Shown in pieces: positions 3,461-56,569 of a stretch of 64,000 bases of DNA. The stretch lies in NCBI GenBank assembly GCA_009781475.1, contig WQYB01000001.1, positions 68,489-132,488 on the forward strand. The letters run 5' to 3'. Source of the DNA: Treponema sp. GTDB taxonomy: Bacteria > Spirochaetota > Spirochaetia > Treponematales > Breznakiellaceae. Under the pieces are notes generated by a model that had not been told where the DNA came from, made no database searches, and saw nothing but the letters and a program-made list of their open reading frames with translations. A program made the translations under genes and the position numbers. Position 1 is the first letter of the stretch. Each line of letters starts with the position of its first letter.

Positions 3461-3534
3461 TTACCACGGAGTTTCACGGAGGAAGAGTTGCTTTCGGATA
3501 AAAACCTCCGTGTTCCTCCGTGTCCTCTGTGGTT
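3461..3534. repeat. CACGGAG palindromic repeat, family A, intergenic copy
   Basis: Left arm ACCACGGAGTTTCACGGAGG and right arm CCTCCGTGTTCCTCCGTG...CTCTGTGGT are imperfect inverted repeats around a ~20-base centre. The same arms recur in the lptD-like gene (39283-39365) and in hemW (55763-55845), there with one extra ACACGGAGT module. The hairpin lies just upstream of the macA-like gene. Confidence 0.85.
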
Positions 3535-6914: not shown

Positions 6915-7000
6915 TTCACACAGAGGCACAAAGGCACGGAGGTCTATGAATAACTTAGAAAAATCTCCGTGTCCTTCGTGACTCCGTGTCTCCGTGTGAT
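6915..7000. repeat. CACGGAG palindromic repeat, family B, intergenic copy
   Basis: Left arm TTCACACAGAGGCACAAAGG and right arm CTCCGTGTCTCCGTGTGAT are inverted around a ~35-base centre. It sits between the permease and the tolC-like gene. The closest copy is at 32136-32212 inside the TPR gene; a half copy is in neuB. Confidence 0.85.
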
Positions 7001-27430: not shown

Positions 27431-28603
27431 TTATATATCTTCAAATCTGATACCTTCGCCTGATGGAATAAAGTTTTGTGCAGTTCTTCCTTCGATTTCT
27501 TTTTCCCAAACAGGTTCAAGACCCGGGCGAAGGATTTTTTCTGTTCTTAAAACAGCGTAATCGCCTTTTTTAATTATTTCGTCTTTTTGAATATCTCTAA
27601 GCGCATGAATCGAACGGTTTGTTAAACGGTAATTTGCTTCCTCTGAAGGAGCCAGTCTTTTTATGCCGTTTCCTAAAATTTGCTGTATCAGTTCTTTTCC
27701 TCTTTCGCGGCTATAATGAGCAATTATTTCGTTGGAGTTTAACTGAGCTGCATACTTAACAGCTTTTGTCATTTTAAGGAAATCAACAGGTTCCAAAGCT
27801 ATAGGGTCGTCTAATCCGGGGTCGTTTCTGGAAAGACAAAAATGCTTTTCGATTACACAAGCTCCCATACCTGCCGCCAGTGCAGGGACAAGCTCGGGGT
27901 CTAAGCTATGGTCGCTAATCCCGACAGAAACACCAAAGATTGCTGAAAGATTAGGTAAAACCCGTAAATTGTAATCAGTCTCCGGCGCAGGATACGATGT
28001 GACACAATGGAGGAGACATACATTAAATCCTTTACTTAACTCTGTGCCTCCGTGTCTCCGTGTGAACTCTTCTCGAAAGATATTAATTGCTATTTCTATG
28101 TCAGCCAATCGGGAAACGCCCGACGAAAGCAATACTGGTATTGACATACCTTGCACATCCCAAGATGCGACATCTTCCAATAAACTTGTAAAATTTAGCT
28201 CCGGAGATGCGATTTTTACCACTTTTGGCTGCATATTTCTTAAAATTGAAGCGCTTTTTATACCAAATGGGGTGCAAAGGAACAAAAGCCCCATATTTTC
28301 GGTATATTCTTTGATTTTTATGTAGAACTCATTCGGCATTTCCAGAGATTTGAACTGGTCGTATAATCTAATCATTCCGCCGGGAAGGGGGACTAATCCT
28401 GTGTTTGGATGGAGAATTTCATCAGCATATACCATCTGAAACTTGACACAACCGGCTCCGGCTTCCGCTGCTGCGGCTGTCATCTCTTTTGCTTTTGATA
28501 AGTCGCCATTATGGGAAGTACCCAATTCTGCTATAATAAGCGGCATTTTGGGTGAATAGCTTTTTCCATCGATTTTCAGAGAAAATCCATCATTTTCTGT
28601 CAT
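27431..28603 (-). CDS. neuB: NeuB-type sialic acid/nonulosonate synthase, interrupted by a palindrome-derived insert
   Basis: About 390 residues. NeuB condenses PEP with an N-acetylated amino sugar to make sialic or related nonulosonic acids. Barrel motifs: IIAELGTSHNGDLSKAKEM, VKFQMVYADE, LCTPFG, KIASPELNF, VLLSSG, LLHCVTSYPAPETDYNLR, GISDHSLDPE and IEKHFCLSRNDPGLDDP; a SAF domain closes the chain (RLTNRSIHALRDIQKDEIIKKGD). A stretch reading FTRRHGGTELSKG in a barrel loop is repeat-derived. I prefer the ATG at 28603 over 28618 because a promoter's -10 box ends right at 28619. It is divergent from a zinc-ribbon gene. Confidence 0.9.
   Translation of the reverse strand: MTENDGFSLKIDGKSYSPKMPLIIAELGTSHNGDLSKAKEMTAAAAEAGAGCVKFQMVYADEILHPNTGLVPLPGGMIRLYDQFKSLEMPNEFYIKIKEYTENMGLLFLCTPFGIKSASILRNMQPKVVKIASPELNFTSLLEDVASWDVQGMSIPVLLSSGVSRLADIEIAINIFREEFTRRHGGTELSKGFNVCLLHCVTSYPAPETDYNLRVLPNLSAIFGVSVGISDHSLDPELVPALAAGMGACVIEKHFCLSRNDPGLDDPIALEPVDFLKMTKAVKYAAQLNSNEIIAHYSRERGKELIQQILGNGIKRLAPSEEANYRLTNRSIHALRDIQKDEIIKKGDYAVLRTEKILRPGLEPVWEKEIEGRTAQNFIPSGEGIRFEDI
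28040..28066. repeat. Half copy of family B palindromic repeat inside neuB
   Basis: CTCTGTGCCTCCGTGTCTCCGTGTGAA matches the right arm of the family B repeat at 6915-7000; only one arm is present. It is translated in frame within neuB as TRRHGGTE. Confidence 0.75.
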
Positions 28604-30168: not shown

Positions 30169-32232
30169 TGACCTTAATAAAGCGCGTAACTCAGGGTTTG
30201 CTGCACTTTCAGTCGGCGGTCTGTTTGCTCTGTTTACCTGCAGGATTACTTCGTCACCAGGTTCAATTCGATCGAAAAAACCGTGCCTTGCTAGGTTTCC
30301 AATTGCTATTTCTTCATCAACATTTGTAATTGTCAGCCTTCCGACAAGTTCATCATCATTATATACAAGTGCGATTCCTTCGTTTGCAACCTGAACACGT
30401 CCGCGTTTTACTATATCGTATACTACATTTTGCTGTATGCCGTCGGCTCTTCCTTTATTTATAAGAGCTTGTCCCTGTCTTCTAACCAATAAACTGCCTC
30501 GAATAGGCATTGAAGAAGAAAGCTGAGTAACAATACCCCGTGATGCTTCCCGCAGACGGTCGGTTCCTGTTCTGAAAGTGTTAAATGTTCCCGCAGGAGA
30601 TCCTGTTCTTCCTACAAAAAGATCAGCTTTTATTGATATGTCGCGTTCGTTTTCATTTACTGAAACAAGCATAAAATAATCAGCGCCGTTTTCTCTTGCC
30701 ATCCTGAAAGCCTGCGAAAAAGACGGCTGGCGGACTTCAAGCTGCAGCGGAATGATATTGCGATCATGAATTAAAAGTTCTCTTACAACACCGGCAGCAA
30801 CAGAACCGGCGTCGGCATGATAAAAACTGGATTGACCATCCAGAGCAAAGACTGCGACTTTCCAGTACCGCTGCGATACATCAACAGGATTAACCTGCCA
30901 TTGCCTGAAAAGAGCGTTGGATAAAAGTGAATTATATGCTTCCACAGCATCATTGACAGCTCTGTTTGCCAAACCTTGATCCTGGAGGAAAAGTAGTTCT
31001 TCAAGATAACGTGCAGGGTAACCTTGCATCCGAAGTAATTCGGCGTATTCACGTCTGTCTTGAGCAAATGGATTTAATCTTAATCCCCTGCGGTATTCAA
31101 AAAGCGACTGATCAATCAGATTACGCTGACGGAAATTTCTTGCCCTGTTAAAATGCCATGCTGCAAATCTGGCACGGCGCGGATCTTCAAGATTGGTTGA
31201 TGAAATTAAAGTTTCTTCCAAAATAGCACGGATAAATTCGGCATTTTCATTGATTGTGATAGCGGTAGAAAGAATTGTAATTGCTTCCTGGGCTCGTCCC
31301 ATTCTAATGAAAGAAAGTCCCTTCAAGTACCATGCGCTCATATCCTGCCTGTTATTCGCTATGGCAATATCGCATAAGCGGGATGCTTCATCATATTCCC
31401 TGTTACGGTAACGAAGAGATGCCATAAGTGATTGAGATGCCGCATGACCGGGTCTGTAATAAAGAGCTCTTTGCGCATAACGAATGGCTTCTGTGATGTT
31501 GTTATTCATGGAGTAGATGTAAGCTGCGTAATAATAAACACGGTAATCGTCCGGGTGCTGCCTTAAGGCATTATTTATATATGTAATGGCTGCTTGATTG
31601 TCGCCAAGAGAAAGAGTAACAAGCGCGAGTGATATTAAAAGACGGCGATCATCAGGGAAGCGCCGTACTGCGTCTCTGTAGCGCAGCATTGCCTCAGATG
31701 GCCTATTTCTTGCAATATCAAGCTCGCCTGCGGCGAATAATGCTTCCCTGTTATACGGCTCTACTGTTAGTATTTGATTTACAAGAGTTGATGCTGTATC
31801 AAGATGACCAAGTGCGATTAAAATAAAGACTTCAAGGTTTGCAATAGACATATTGCTGCGTGAAAGCTGCCTTGCTCTTCTTACCCATGTTAGAGCTTCG
31901 TCAAATTCTGACAGTTCGTAGTAACATTCGGCTAAAGCAGCAGTTCCTTCTGCATGAGAGGGGTTTAATCTTAAACATTCAAGGAAGGATTCAATGGCAG
32001 AATACCAGTTTTCGTCTGCCATGTGGGATTTGCCGCGTTCAAAATGCGCCGCAGCAGCAGGTGTCTGCGCCTCAATAGAGATTGGAAATAATGAAATTAT
32101 AAATAAAATAGAAATCAGAATTATCGGAAATTTAATCACACGGAGACACGGAGACACGGAGTTAATTAATAATGATCTTTGTGTTCTCCGTGCCTTTGTG
32201 ACTCCGTGTGAAGTTATTCTACAAAAATTCAT
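30160..32232 (-). CDS. Secreted tetratricopeptide-repeat protein with repeat-derived N-terminal extension
   Basis: 690 residues. Many TPR units run from ~residue 60 to 390 (AAAHFERGKSHMADENWYSA, AEGTAALAECYYELSEFDEA, YRVYYYAAYIYSMNNNITEA). The second half is beta-rich, with a FlgT/LpoB-like piece (VAVFALDGQSSF) and a C-terminal domain around VVYDIVKRGRVQVANEGIAL. The ATG at 32232 has an excellent GGGAGGG ribosome site. Residues ~7-32 are translated from a palindromic repeat, and only then comes the hydrophobic signal segment (PIILISILFIISLF...SIEAQ). Probably periplasmic; exact function unknown. Confidence 0.8.
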   Translation of the reverse strand: MNFCRITSHGVTKARRTQRSLLINSVSPCLRVIKFPIILISILFIISLFPISIEAQTPAAAAHFERGKSHMADENWYSAIESFLECLRLNPSHAEGTAALAECYYELSEFDEALTWVRRARQLSRSNMSIANLEVFILIALGHLDTASTLVNQILTVEPYNREALFAAGELDIARNRPSEAMLRYRDAVRRFPDDRRLLISLALVTLSLGDNQAAITYINNALRQHPDDYRVYYYAAYIYSMNNNITEAIRYAQRALYYRPGHAASQSLMASLRYRNREYDEASRLCDIAIANNRQDMSAWYLKGLSFIRMGRAQEAITILSTAITINENAEFIRAILEETLISSTNLEDPRRARFAAWHFNRARNFRQRNLIDQSLFEYRRGLRLNPFAQDRREYAELLRMQGYPARYLEELLFLQDQGLANRAVNDAVEAYNSLLSNALFRQWQVNPVDVSQRYWKVAVFALDGQSSFYHADAGSVAAGVVRELLIHDRNIIPLQLEVRQPSFSQAFRMARENGADYFMLVSVNENERDISIKADLFVGRTGSPAGTFNTFRTGTDRLREASRGIVTQLSSSMPIRGSLLVRRQGQALINKGRADGIQQNVVYDIVKRGRVQVANEGIALVYNDDELVGRLTITNVDEEIAIGNLARHGFFDRIEPGDEVILQVNRANRPPTESAANPELRALLRSLR
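32136..32212. repeat. CACGGAG palindromic repeat, family B, within the TPR gene
   Basis: TCACACGGAGACACGGAGAC on one side and CTCCGTGCCTTTGTGACTCC on the other flank a ~25-base centre. It corresponds to the family B element at 6915-7000 in inverted orientation. It is read in frame between the start codon and signal peptide of the TPR gene. Confidence 0.85.
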
Positions 32233-38900: not shown

Positions 38901-39406
38901 CTTATTTTATGGATTGTATTGCCGTCTTTTAATGAAATAAAAACATCGCCTCTTAAACGGGCATACTCTTCATCGATTACATCAATTGTAAAATATTCAG
39001 ATACTTGCGCTGATTCAATAATTATTACTTTTTGATTATCATTATTTTGTGATGTTTGCGGTAAATCAAAATAGTTCTGTAAACGTCTGGAAAGATCTTC
39101 TCTTGAGCCGCTTTCCGAAAGTCCGAGTGTGCGGCTCCAAAGAGCAAGTTCGCTTAAGGTTGAAGTTCTTATCTCCATTTCTATACGCTGTCTTTCCGGA
39201 GAAAGTGAATAATTAAAATCGGGTTCTTCAGCTTCCTGAGCTTGTAATATTGAAAAAGAATTTAAGAAAATAAAGAATAAAAAACCACAGAGGACACGGA
39301 GGAACACGGAGGTTATGGTTCGAAAACTCATTCTTCCTCCGTGAAACTCCGTGTACTCCGTGGTAAAATTTCTTGTATTTTTATTCTTCTTATTTTCAAA
39401 TCTCAT
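35936..39406 (-). CDS. LptD/OstA-like outer-membrane barrel protein with repeat-derived insert
   Basis: 1156 residues. After the signal peptide ([16 protein letters not shown]) and a helical stretch comes an OstA/LptA-like domain ([43 protein letters not shown]) and a very long Asn/Ser/Tyr-rich beta barrel. It resembles the treponemal LptD-like protein TP0515; the substrate is unclear because treponemes lack classical LPS. The ATG overlaps the uvrA stop (ATGA), fixing the start, so residues ~14-42, encoded by a palindromic repeat, are inside the real gene ahead of the signal helix. Confidence 0.82.
39283..39365. repeat. CACGGAG palindromic repeat, family A, within the lptD-like gene
   Basis: AACCACAGAGGACACGGAGG at one end and GTGAAACTCCGTGTACTCCG at the other flank a ~30-base centre. 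It is nearly identical in its arms to 55763-55845 and, inverted, to 3461-3534. Read in frame as [10 protein letters not shown] and SVFLRVLCG in the host protein. Confidence 0.88.
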
Positions 39407-54630: not shown

Positions 54631-55344
54631 ATGTTTGATAAGTCAACGCAATATTCATACAAAGCCCAGAAATATCAGCGTTACAGAATACTTAAGTATT
54701 TGATAATTTTCTTTATTTTATACATTGTTTATAATTGTCTAACCGCTTTTTTCTTTTCTGTTTGGGTAGTCGACAATAATACAATGCACCCCGGAATTAG
54801 CGCAGGCGACAGAGTAATTTTTTCATCTTTCAAGGCTCCCTGGAGCATAAACGATGAAAATCCGTTTCCGTACAAACGAGGCAGTGTTGTATTGGTCGAT
54901 ATGAGGCATGAAAGAAATCAAAGTATGCCTTTGCGTGCTGTTGATGGAATTGTCAGATTTTTTACTGCACAGCAGGTAAGTATTTTTTCCGGCGGGCAGT
55001 ATTATATTAAAAGGGTAATAGCACTTCCCGGTGATGAAATTACAATGAACAATCATATATTCAGGGTAAAAGCATCCGGCAGTATGTACAGTCTTACAGA
55101 ATATGAGTTATCTGACAAACCTTACCACCCTGCAATACCGCAGGCTTCTGATCTATGGGATGATTCAATTCCGTTTTCCGGAAACATGGATACAATATTA
55201 CTGGGACCTGATGAATATTTTGTTATCTCGGATGATAGAAGTAATACAAATGATTCAAGGACATGGGGAGCGATATCATCATCTATAATTACATCAAAAG
55301 CGGTAATAAGAATTTGGCCTTTAAATAAAATTGAATTGTTTTAA
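54631..55344 (+). CDS. Signal peptidase I-like paralogue with Thr at the nucleophile position
   Basis: 237 residues. Membrane helix (YLIIFFILYIVYNCLTAFFF), then VVDNNTMHPGISAGDRVIF: the residue aligning with the catalytic Ser of the neighbouring lepB is Thr51. Lys127 (YYIKRVIALPGDEI) and the final SDDRSNTNDSRTWGAIS box are kept. Either Thr acts as nucleophile, or it is an inactive or specialised subunit. AAGG-type ribosome site precedes the ATG. The end overlaps hemW. Confidence 0.88.
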   Translation: MFDKSTQYSYKAQKYQRYRILKYLIIFFILYIVYNCLTAFFFSVWVVDNNTMHPGISAGDRVIFSSFKAPWSINDENPFPYKRGSVVLVDMRHERNQSMPLRAVDGIVRFFTAQQVSIFSGGQYYIKRVIALPGDEITMNNHIFRVKASGSMYSLTEYELSDKPYHPAIPQASDLWDDSIPFSGNMDTILLGPDEYFVISDDRSNTNDSRTWGAISSSIITSKAVIRIWPLNKIELF

Positions 55345-56569
55345 TAATGCATCAGTTTACATTCATATTCCGTTTTGCGCCTCTCTTTGCGATTATTGTG
55401 ATTTTTTTTCTGTAAAAATAAATGATGTAAATGACGGATATATTGATTCATATTTAAATGCGCTTTTTACCGATATTAATTATCAGATAGAGTATTTTAA
55501 TATAAAAAATATTCCAACGGTTTATATAGGAGGCGGTACTCCTTCTGTACTTGGAAAAAAAATAAAAAAACTTTTTGACGCATTAAATAAGATTCCGGAT
55601 TTTAAACCAATTGAGTTTTCCATAGAAGCAAATCCGGAATCCATTACAGAAGATTTTCTTAAGTTATGTAAGGATGGCGGTGTAAACAGATTAAGTCTTG
55701 GCGTGCAGACTTTTTTTGAACCATCGAGGGTTGCTGTTAACCGTAATCCTAAAAGAATAATAACCACAGAGGACACGGAGGGACACGGAGTTATTAATAC
55801 TAAAAAAATATACTCCTCCGTGAAACTCCGTGTACTCCGTGGTAAATTTTCTTATTATTTAAAATATAAAAAGCAACTTGAATTAGCGGCAAAATATTTT
55901 CAGGATAACCTTTCTATAGATTTAATTACAGGGCTGCCGTTTCAGGATGAAAAAGTAATAATCGATGATATAAAAAAAGTTTTGGAATATAAACCAGCGC
56001 ATATTTCTCTTTACAGTCTTTCTGTAGAAGATGGAACACCATTACAAAAAAAAATAAAAAAGGGTAGTGTTAGTTTACCAAATGAAGATAAGGCAGATTC
56101 ATTGTGGCTTACAAGCCGTGATACGCTTATTAATGCCGGTTTTGAGCAATATGAAGTTTCCAACTTTGCTATTGACAGCAAAAAATGCCTTCATAATATG
56201 AATTACTGGTTAATGAATAATTGGATTGGAGCCGGTGCTTCTGCTTCCGGTACTATTATAGATGAAAATACAAAAACTGCCAGACGCTTTACGTATAACA
56301 AAGATATAAAAAAATATATAAATAATCCTTCGCTTCATTCTGCAAATTTAATTGAACTTGATACTAAGACATTAATAAAGGACTGTATTTTAATGGGATA
56401 CAGATGCAAAGAAGGTCTAGATAATGAATTGTTCTGCCAGCGTTTTGGCTGTTCAATCGCGGATTATATTCCCAAAACTCTGGAACGTTGGAAAAATAAA
56501 GACAAAATGCTTTTTTTAAACAGTTTTATTAAAAATGCGTTTGCAGAATTGGATGAAAAATCTCATTAA
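55331..56569 (+). CDS. hemW: HemW-type radical SAM protein containing a translated palindromic repeat
   Basis: 412 residues beginning at a TTG (55331) that overlaps the preceding gene; no ATG is available before the Fe-S motif. IHIPFCASLCDYCDF is the CxxxCxxC radical SAM motif; YIGGGTPSVL, EANPESI, RLSLGVQTF, LSIDLITGLPFQ and HISLYSLSVEDGTP are HemW/HemN signatures. Related to heme trafficking or coproporphyrinogen metabolism; HemN-specific residues were not tested. Between VNRNPKR and YLKYKKQLELAAKYF, residues 145-172 are encoded by a family A repeat (ITTEDTEGHG...SVKLRVLRG). The frame stays intact. Confidence 0.9.
   Translation: MNCFNNASVYIHIPFCASLCDYCDFFSVKINDVNDGYIDSYLNALFTDINYQIEYFNIKNIPTVYIGGGTPSVLGKKIKKLFDALNKIPDFKPIEFSIEANPESITEDFLKLCKDGGVNRLSLGVQTFFEPSRVAVNRNPKRIITTEDTEGHGVINTKKIYSSVKLRVLRGKFSYYLKYKKQLELAAKYFQDNLSIDLITGLPFQDEKVIIDDIKKVLEYKPAHISLYSLSVEDGTPLQKKIKKGSVSLPNEDKADSLWLTSRDTLINAGFEQYEVSNFAIDSKKCLHNMNYWLMNNWIGAGASASGTIIDENTKTARRFTYNKDIKKYINNPSLHSANLIELDTKTLIKDCILMGYRCKEGLDNELFCQRFGCSIADYIPKTLERWKNKDKMLFLNSFIKNAFAELDEKSH
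55763..55845. repeat. CACGGAG palindromic repeat, family A, within hemW
   Basis: AACCACAGAGGACACGGAGG on the left and CGTGAAACTCCGTGTACTCC on the right are inverted arms around an A/T-rich centre. It is read through in frame. Arms match 39283-39365 almost base for base while the centres differ. Confidence 0.88.

Follow-up and report, generated by a model that had tools for sequence, protein, structure and literature searches.

The hemW gene of the window, by which we mean the whole stretch of 64,000 nucleotides analysed here, carries a complete palindromic element inside its reading frame (Table 1). The first base of the element falls exactly on a codon boundary and translation runs through it with no stop and no frameshift. 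The preliminary description was right that a two-armed palindrome is translated in frame, but it counted about 28 residues (145-172) where there are 27 (145-171). The element folds at -36.5 kcal/mol (z -7.0 versus shuffles), the small mismatch loops between its arms are conserved, and it is 86-88% identical over ~100 bp to the best dispersed copies, with ends that match the arms of the family. The tryptic peptide predicted from the insert is IITTEDTEGHGVINTK.

Table 1 Features discussed in the text (coordinates are those of the window unless a locus is named)
Feature	Position	Strand	Details
hemW (radical SAM heme chaperone HemW)	55331..56569	+	412 codons, TTG start as listed; TIGR00539 match
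Two-armed palindromic element ACCAC...GTGGT	55763..55843	.	81 bp = 27 codons, HemW residues 145-171; genome-wide homologous copies
Left arm of HemW palindrome	55763..55790	+	modules ACCACAGAG GACACGGAG GGACACGGAG
Right arm of HemW palindrome	55816..55843	+	CTCCGTG AAA CTCCGTG TA CTCCGTGGT; internal 3-nt mismatch loops
Intergenic ACCAC-family copy	3463..3533	.	one arm shortened
ACCAC-family copy	39284..39364	.	5' end of the ORF taken as lptD-like (minus strand); codons 11-44 if translated, adjoining signal-peptide-like stretch
TTCAC-type palindrome	6915..7000	.	type carrying the genome's own GxxExxY gene
Second TTCAC-type palindrome	32136..32212	.	same type as 6915..7000
Single right arm, TTCAC type	28040..28066	.	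same type as 6915..7000
rsmG/gidB internal insertion	L020:2066-2806	minus	element aa 72-102, between helical N-terminus and SAM-binding GxGxG strand

A gene interrupted in this way might be a decaying pseudogene whose frame stays open across the repeat by accident, and the preliminary description had named this as something that would overturn its reading. PF06969 (HemN_C) does score under its cut-off in HemW, and the start codon is TTG. Against this, the frame is full-length, the radical SAM CxxxCxxC motif (present as HIPFCASLCDYC) and GGGTP are conserved, and a TIGR00539 profile search gave 238.5 bits (cut-off 205.4), the match falling in two stretches that are split at the insert. Comparison with HemW of G017, insert excluded, yielded dN 0.14 and dS 1.06 (dN/dS ~0.13), a contrast that mostly reflects the time before the insertion. 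By these sequence measures hemW is intact and under purifying selection, and we regard decay as highly improbable. HemW function appears to be retained with 27 extra residues because the insert is divisible by three in length and has no stop in that frame; alignment with E. coli HemN (1olt) breaks at the insert site, from residue 185 to 205.

The insert is absent from 27 of 29 aligned HemWs of the same genus. The two closest, those of G017 (74% identity) and G013 (59%), hold other repeats where the insert stands (TTCACGCAAAGACGCAGAGGACGCAAAGAGCGCAAAG and TTCTCGCGGAGGCGCAGAGGCGCAGAGAACGCGGAG, respectively), both one-armed, in frame and built of other module types. What had been proposed as a refutation, an equivalent loop of unrelated DNA, is seen in these two species, but in an informative form, as their loops are further members of one kind of module repeat. 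One-armed, regularly spaced arrays at this site, in a loop of variable length within the genus, could point to a low-complexity hemW loop that grew in situ by slippage of 8-9-nt modules with no insertion of an element. We consider such growth very unlikely, since the window's insert has both arms and its ends and sequence are those of the dispersed family, and since the G013 insert corresponds to the arm of G013's own GxxExxY element (see below) over 51 nt, non-modular tail included. Repeats at the same site in three genomes may reflect either repeated insertion at one permissive site or an old insertion later replaced. A similar case is recB of X. campestris and X. oryzae, in which different REPs occupy one coding site (PMC3733652), as differing repeats do in HemW of the window's genome (G000), G017 and G013; the repeats and the gene are others.

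The HemW palindrome has many relatives in the window's genome (3.29 Mb, a 93% complete assembly), where we found 53 palindrome matches at 40 distinct places. This genome has 96 occurrences of the arm motif CCACRGAGNNCACRGAG and none of the same motif reversed, as a control; the window itself holds 11 half-arms with arrays of at least two modules, compared with an expectation of 0 per shuffled window. Among the copies the arms are nearly invariant while loops and flanks vary, and the flanks of treponeme copies are AT-rich and partly inverted repeats themselves. An Rfam search of the window gave no match to a known RNA family. The intergenic copy reported at 3461-3534 is real, with slightly different ends, as is the copy in the lptD-like gene, although the latter is N-terminal and a Pfam search of that gene found no match.

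Only two of the 40 copies are gene-internal (hemW and rsmG), ~8 extend into the start of a gene or a signal peptide, and all others are intergenic, most of the 40 lying within short intergenic gaps. The proposal of a mobile or expandable repeat that is tolerated in proteins is borne out insofar as the repeat is dispersed, stands in frame in a gene under purifying selection and is missing from the HemW of most relatives, but tolerance within coding sequence is not the rule. In rsmG/gidB the copy is likewise in frame, with residues 63-106 in place of ~5 residues of the E. coli protein. The ~8 palindromes that run in frame into gene 5' ends lie beside signal-peptide-like stretches, as if supplying signal-peptide n-regions (window 39284-39364; L016, L024, L028, L030, L032, L033, L035, L038); FliP and an amidase are examples of gene-start copies, and for some translation could in truth start within the element or 3' of it.

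The lengths of 15 of 36 copies are divisible by three, and 13 of these 15 are open in the HemW frame, so an in-frame event needed some luck, though not much. That ~9-nt modules keep the frame, as suggested earlier, is partly right; the spacings of modules in the arms are 8, 9 and 10 nt, and frame preservation does not hold in general, since the majority of copies would cause a frameshift.

GxxExxY proteins often start with repeat-like residues, and we therefore searched 60 relatives with TIGR04256. GxxExxY genes (TIGR04256/PF13366) sit between inverted arms of the same kind of 7-9-nt modules, and the TIGR04256 and PF13366 scores of the loop genes are far above the cut-offs. With the arm-score threshold set at 25, the 99th percentile of random windows, 18 of 20 full-length GxxExxY loci in the window's order lie above it (mean 41 versus 17 for random), as do 58 of 78 in a set from many phyla (80 loci taken, 78 with usable flanks); the roughly one quarter of cross-phylum loci without clear arms speaks against the link. 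Five module types surround GxxExxY genes (ACCACGGAG, CACGAAC, CACGGATT, CAGGAT and TTCAC/TTCTC CGCAGAG), each pairing with a protein subfamily and not with the host; two genomes hold two types each, and arm similarity tracks protein similarity (Mantel r 0.40, 0/2000). The HemW palindrome itself has inverted arms of tandem 7-9-nt modules, and its arm type holds a GxxExxY gene in the loop elsewhere in the same genus, namely at L081 in G008 (AATAACCACAGAGTACACGGAG...[gene]...CTCTGTGGTTAAATT).

Sphingomonas offers a natural experiment: GxxExxY lies there between fabD and fabG in 34 of 35 gene-bearing genomes examined; being fixed at one locus, it is not an ordinary self-jumping element. The fabD-fabG interval measures ~460-520 bp with the gene and 11-130 bp in most genomes without it. 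Across 33 species with 33 different left arms, left and right arms co-vary at this site (own 50.0 versus 30.7 permuted, maximum 38.2), and, with the host accounted for, module type still follows the GxxExxY variant (partial Mantel r 0.563, 0/5000; arms versus host 0.06). Dispersed arms, counted as present at three or more after subtraction of the two resident arms, were found in 42 of 50 genomes with the gene compared with 3 of 51 without it (p=1e-16). Exceptions are G156, in which an internally deleted GxxExxY still has an arm on either side, G101, which retains a right-arm remnant, and G090, in which the contig ends at fabG. On a fabD+fabG tree the presence of the gene changed ~15 times, and the gene-bearing partner was favoured in 11 of 13 untied independent pairs (p=0.011), which is modest support. 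Where copies were listed, in five genomes, a resident arm found its exact matches relatively most often within its own genome. In three genomes lacking GxxExxY the fabD-fabG interval is ~1.25-1.33 kb and apparently holds an acyltransferase-like gene (L269 in G129, L276 in G079, L284 in G107).

Within the window's order the picture depends on the arm type. TTCACAC arms are numerous in seven of eight genomes with the matching GxxExxY type versus 4 of 52 others (p=6e-6; the partial match in G026 was typed by similarity and that in G005 was left out), and show no link with other GxxExxY types. One genome of the same genus, G020, has 271 TTCACAC arms and a GxxExxY gene flanked by the TTCAC type. 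For ACCAC copies, the relation to GxxExxY of any type is not significant and the same-type test comprises three genomes only; the TIGR04256 search gave no match in G009 (150 ACCAC arms) or G032 (123), and in the 93% complete assembly of the window's genome it gave only the TTCAC-type L091 and no matching ACCAC type. Another gene as the ACCAC driver in G032 was considered and rejected, the long loops there holding unrelated genes, none of them shared. For the family of the HemW insert, copies and gene thus do not go together, which counts against the reading favoured below. The case that the HemW palindrome is a member of the GxxExxY-associated class is strong; its own driver in the window's genome may be lost or unassembled, or may be the TTCAC-type protein acting in trans. 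Many of the genomes sampled are incomplete assemblies, relatedness was handled crudely outside Sphingomonas, and both the search patterns and the arm thresholds (3 and 5) were set once the loci had been seen; since several hypotheses were tried in turn, all p-values are descriptive.

To our knowledge GxxExxY is a widespread bacterial family with no known function. The loop genes carry a D..ExK motif, the D, E and K of the PD-(D/E)XK signature being invariant (D58, E68 and K70 in the numbering of L182), and the predicted model (pLDDT 93.8) has a restriction-endonuclease-like fold whose best structural matches include SSO0001 (Z 9.9), which we take to be a Cas4 protein, and Hjc resolvases (Z 6-7.4); a search by sequence for a solved GxxExxY structure found none. 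From this model one may reasonably propose a nuclease that is structure-specific and acts on hairpins or cruciforms, with the proviso that a fold alone shows no function. Papers found to mention GxxExxY do not discuss repeats, and a family description elsewhere may already note them; searches by arm sequence and family name returned nothing relevant.

The explanation we favour, and judge probable, is that the HemW insert belongs, as a non-autonomous palindrome, to a widespread GxxExxY-associated element class, whose mobilisation we infer from the comparative data. The gene-bearing version carries in its loop the gene for the small PD-(D/E)XK nuclease, which may recognise hairpins or cruciforms of the arms and cut or copy them. 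Gene-less copies could then originate when the gene drops out of the loop or through mobilisation in trans, and one of them, moved in this way, would have inserted into a length-tolerant loop of HemW. We give about an even chance to the broader proposition that many tandem-module palindromes form one mobile class, driven by GxxExxY proteins that recognise their own arm modules in a manner resembling REPIN/RAYT with an unrelated nuclease, and that proteins such as HemW and RsmG can come to incorporate gene-less copies.

The palindromes could instead be hairpins of RNA or DNA maintained by the host as 3' ends, terminators or mRNA stabilisers, GxxExxY being a parasite that homes into their loops and the HemW copy a stray. 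Such a role would fit the way most copies fill short intergenic gaps (convergent ~11 versus divergent ~4), arm conservation far above that of the loops, the persistence of ACCAC copies in genomes without GxxExxY, and palindromes nested in the loops of others, which indicate that loops accept insertions. We nonetheless think it rather unlikely, because gene-less copies are nearly absent from Sphingomonas genomes without the gene, module type tracks the nuclease variant and not the host, and in G156 a palindrome is seen losing the gene. A REP/RAYT-type system, in which a Y1 (HUH) transposase mobilises the palindromes, is suggested by their REPIN-like character overall (short imperfect hairpins, dispersed and mostly intergenic) and by Y1_Tnp genes in 29 of 60 relatives. 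REP/RAYT elements have GTAG or CGTC end tags (PMC3733652), whereas the arms in the sequences read here start with ACCAC or TTCAC, end with GTGGT or GTGAA and have neither tag, and Y1_Tnp is missing from G018, G004 and the window's genome, all of them copy-rich. A RAYT driver was rejected for the window's genome (93% complete), which has 0 PF01797 (Y1_Tnp) matches, and such a system seems to us scarcely credible as the source of these copies.

The GxxExxY-associated class does share with REPIN/RAYT (PMC3116915, PMC8049555, PMC3733652) dispersed, imperfect, mainly intergenic palindromes, a small nuclease gene that is often single-copy at a stable locus and flanked by the same repeat type, and a gene presence that tracks repeat number. 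It differs in that GxxExxY is a PD-(D/E)XK protein and RAYT (TnpA-REP) a Y1/HUH tyrosine transposase, in that its arms are tandem 7-9-nt modules with no GTAG or CGTC tags, and in spanning many phyla, each nuclease subfamily having its own module type. The likeness to Rickettsia palindromic elements (Ogata 2000 and 2002, reviewed in PMC10969869) drawn in the preliminary description holds as a resemblance, with in-frame translation within genes adding ~30 residues, and fails as membership: those elements lie mostly inside ORFs, end in CGTC (criterion in PMC3733652) and have no known nuclease partner, whereas the copies here run ACCAC...GTGGT and are gene-internal in 2 of 40 cases. Bacterial MITEs (PMC10969869) are likewise short and gene-less, are bounded by terminal inverted repeats and have gene-bearing relatives, and an internal deletion is seen here in G156; unlike them, our palindromes have no recognised transposase or established target-site duplication.

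The association offers a testable role for GxxExxY and a common partner for dispersed module palindromes that had none, and points to the driver, previously unnamed, of this kind of mobile element. If correct, it would add to RAYT/REPIN another nuclease-plus-palindrome system, built independently of the first. The variants of arm module and nuclease are a ready natural collection in which to study recognition. As HemW and RsmG show, housekeeping proteins can take up such elements in the form of in-frame peptides.

Nesting of one repeat in another was seen in both groups. A small hairpin, GGCAACTNNAGTTGCC, lies within the arms of some treponeme palindromes as a second repeat targeting the first (G000 C37:19903-20006 and C16:30399-30503, loci L031 and L045; G008 L216-L228), and in Sphingomonas palindromes of the CGCGGAG type are nested within the loop of the CGCGAAG type (G066 C6:105458-105651, G163 C2:116154-116360).
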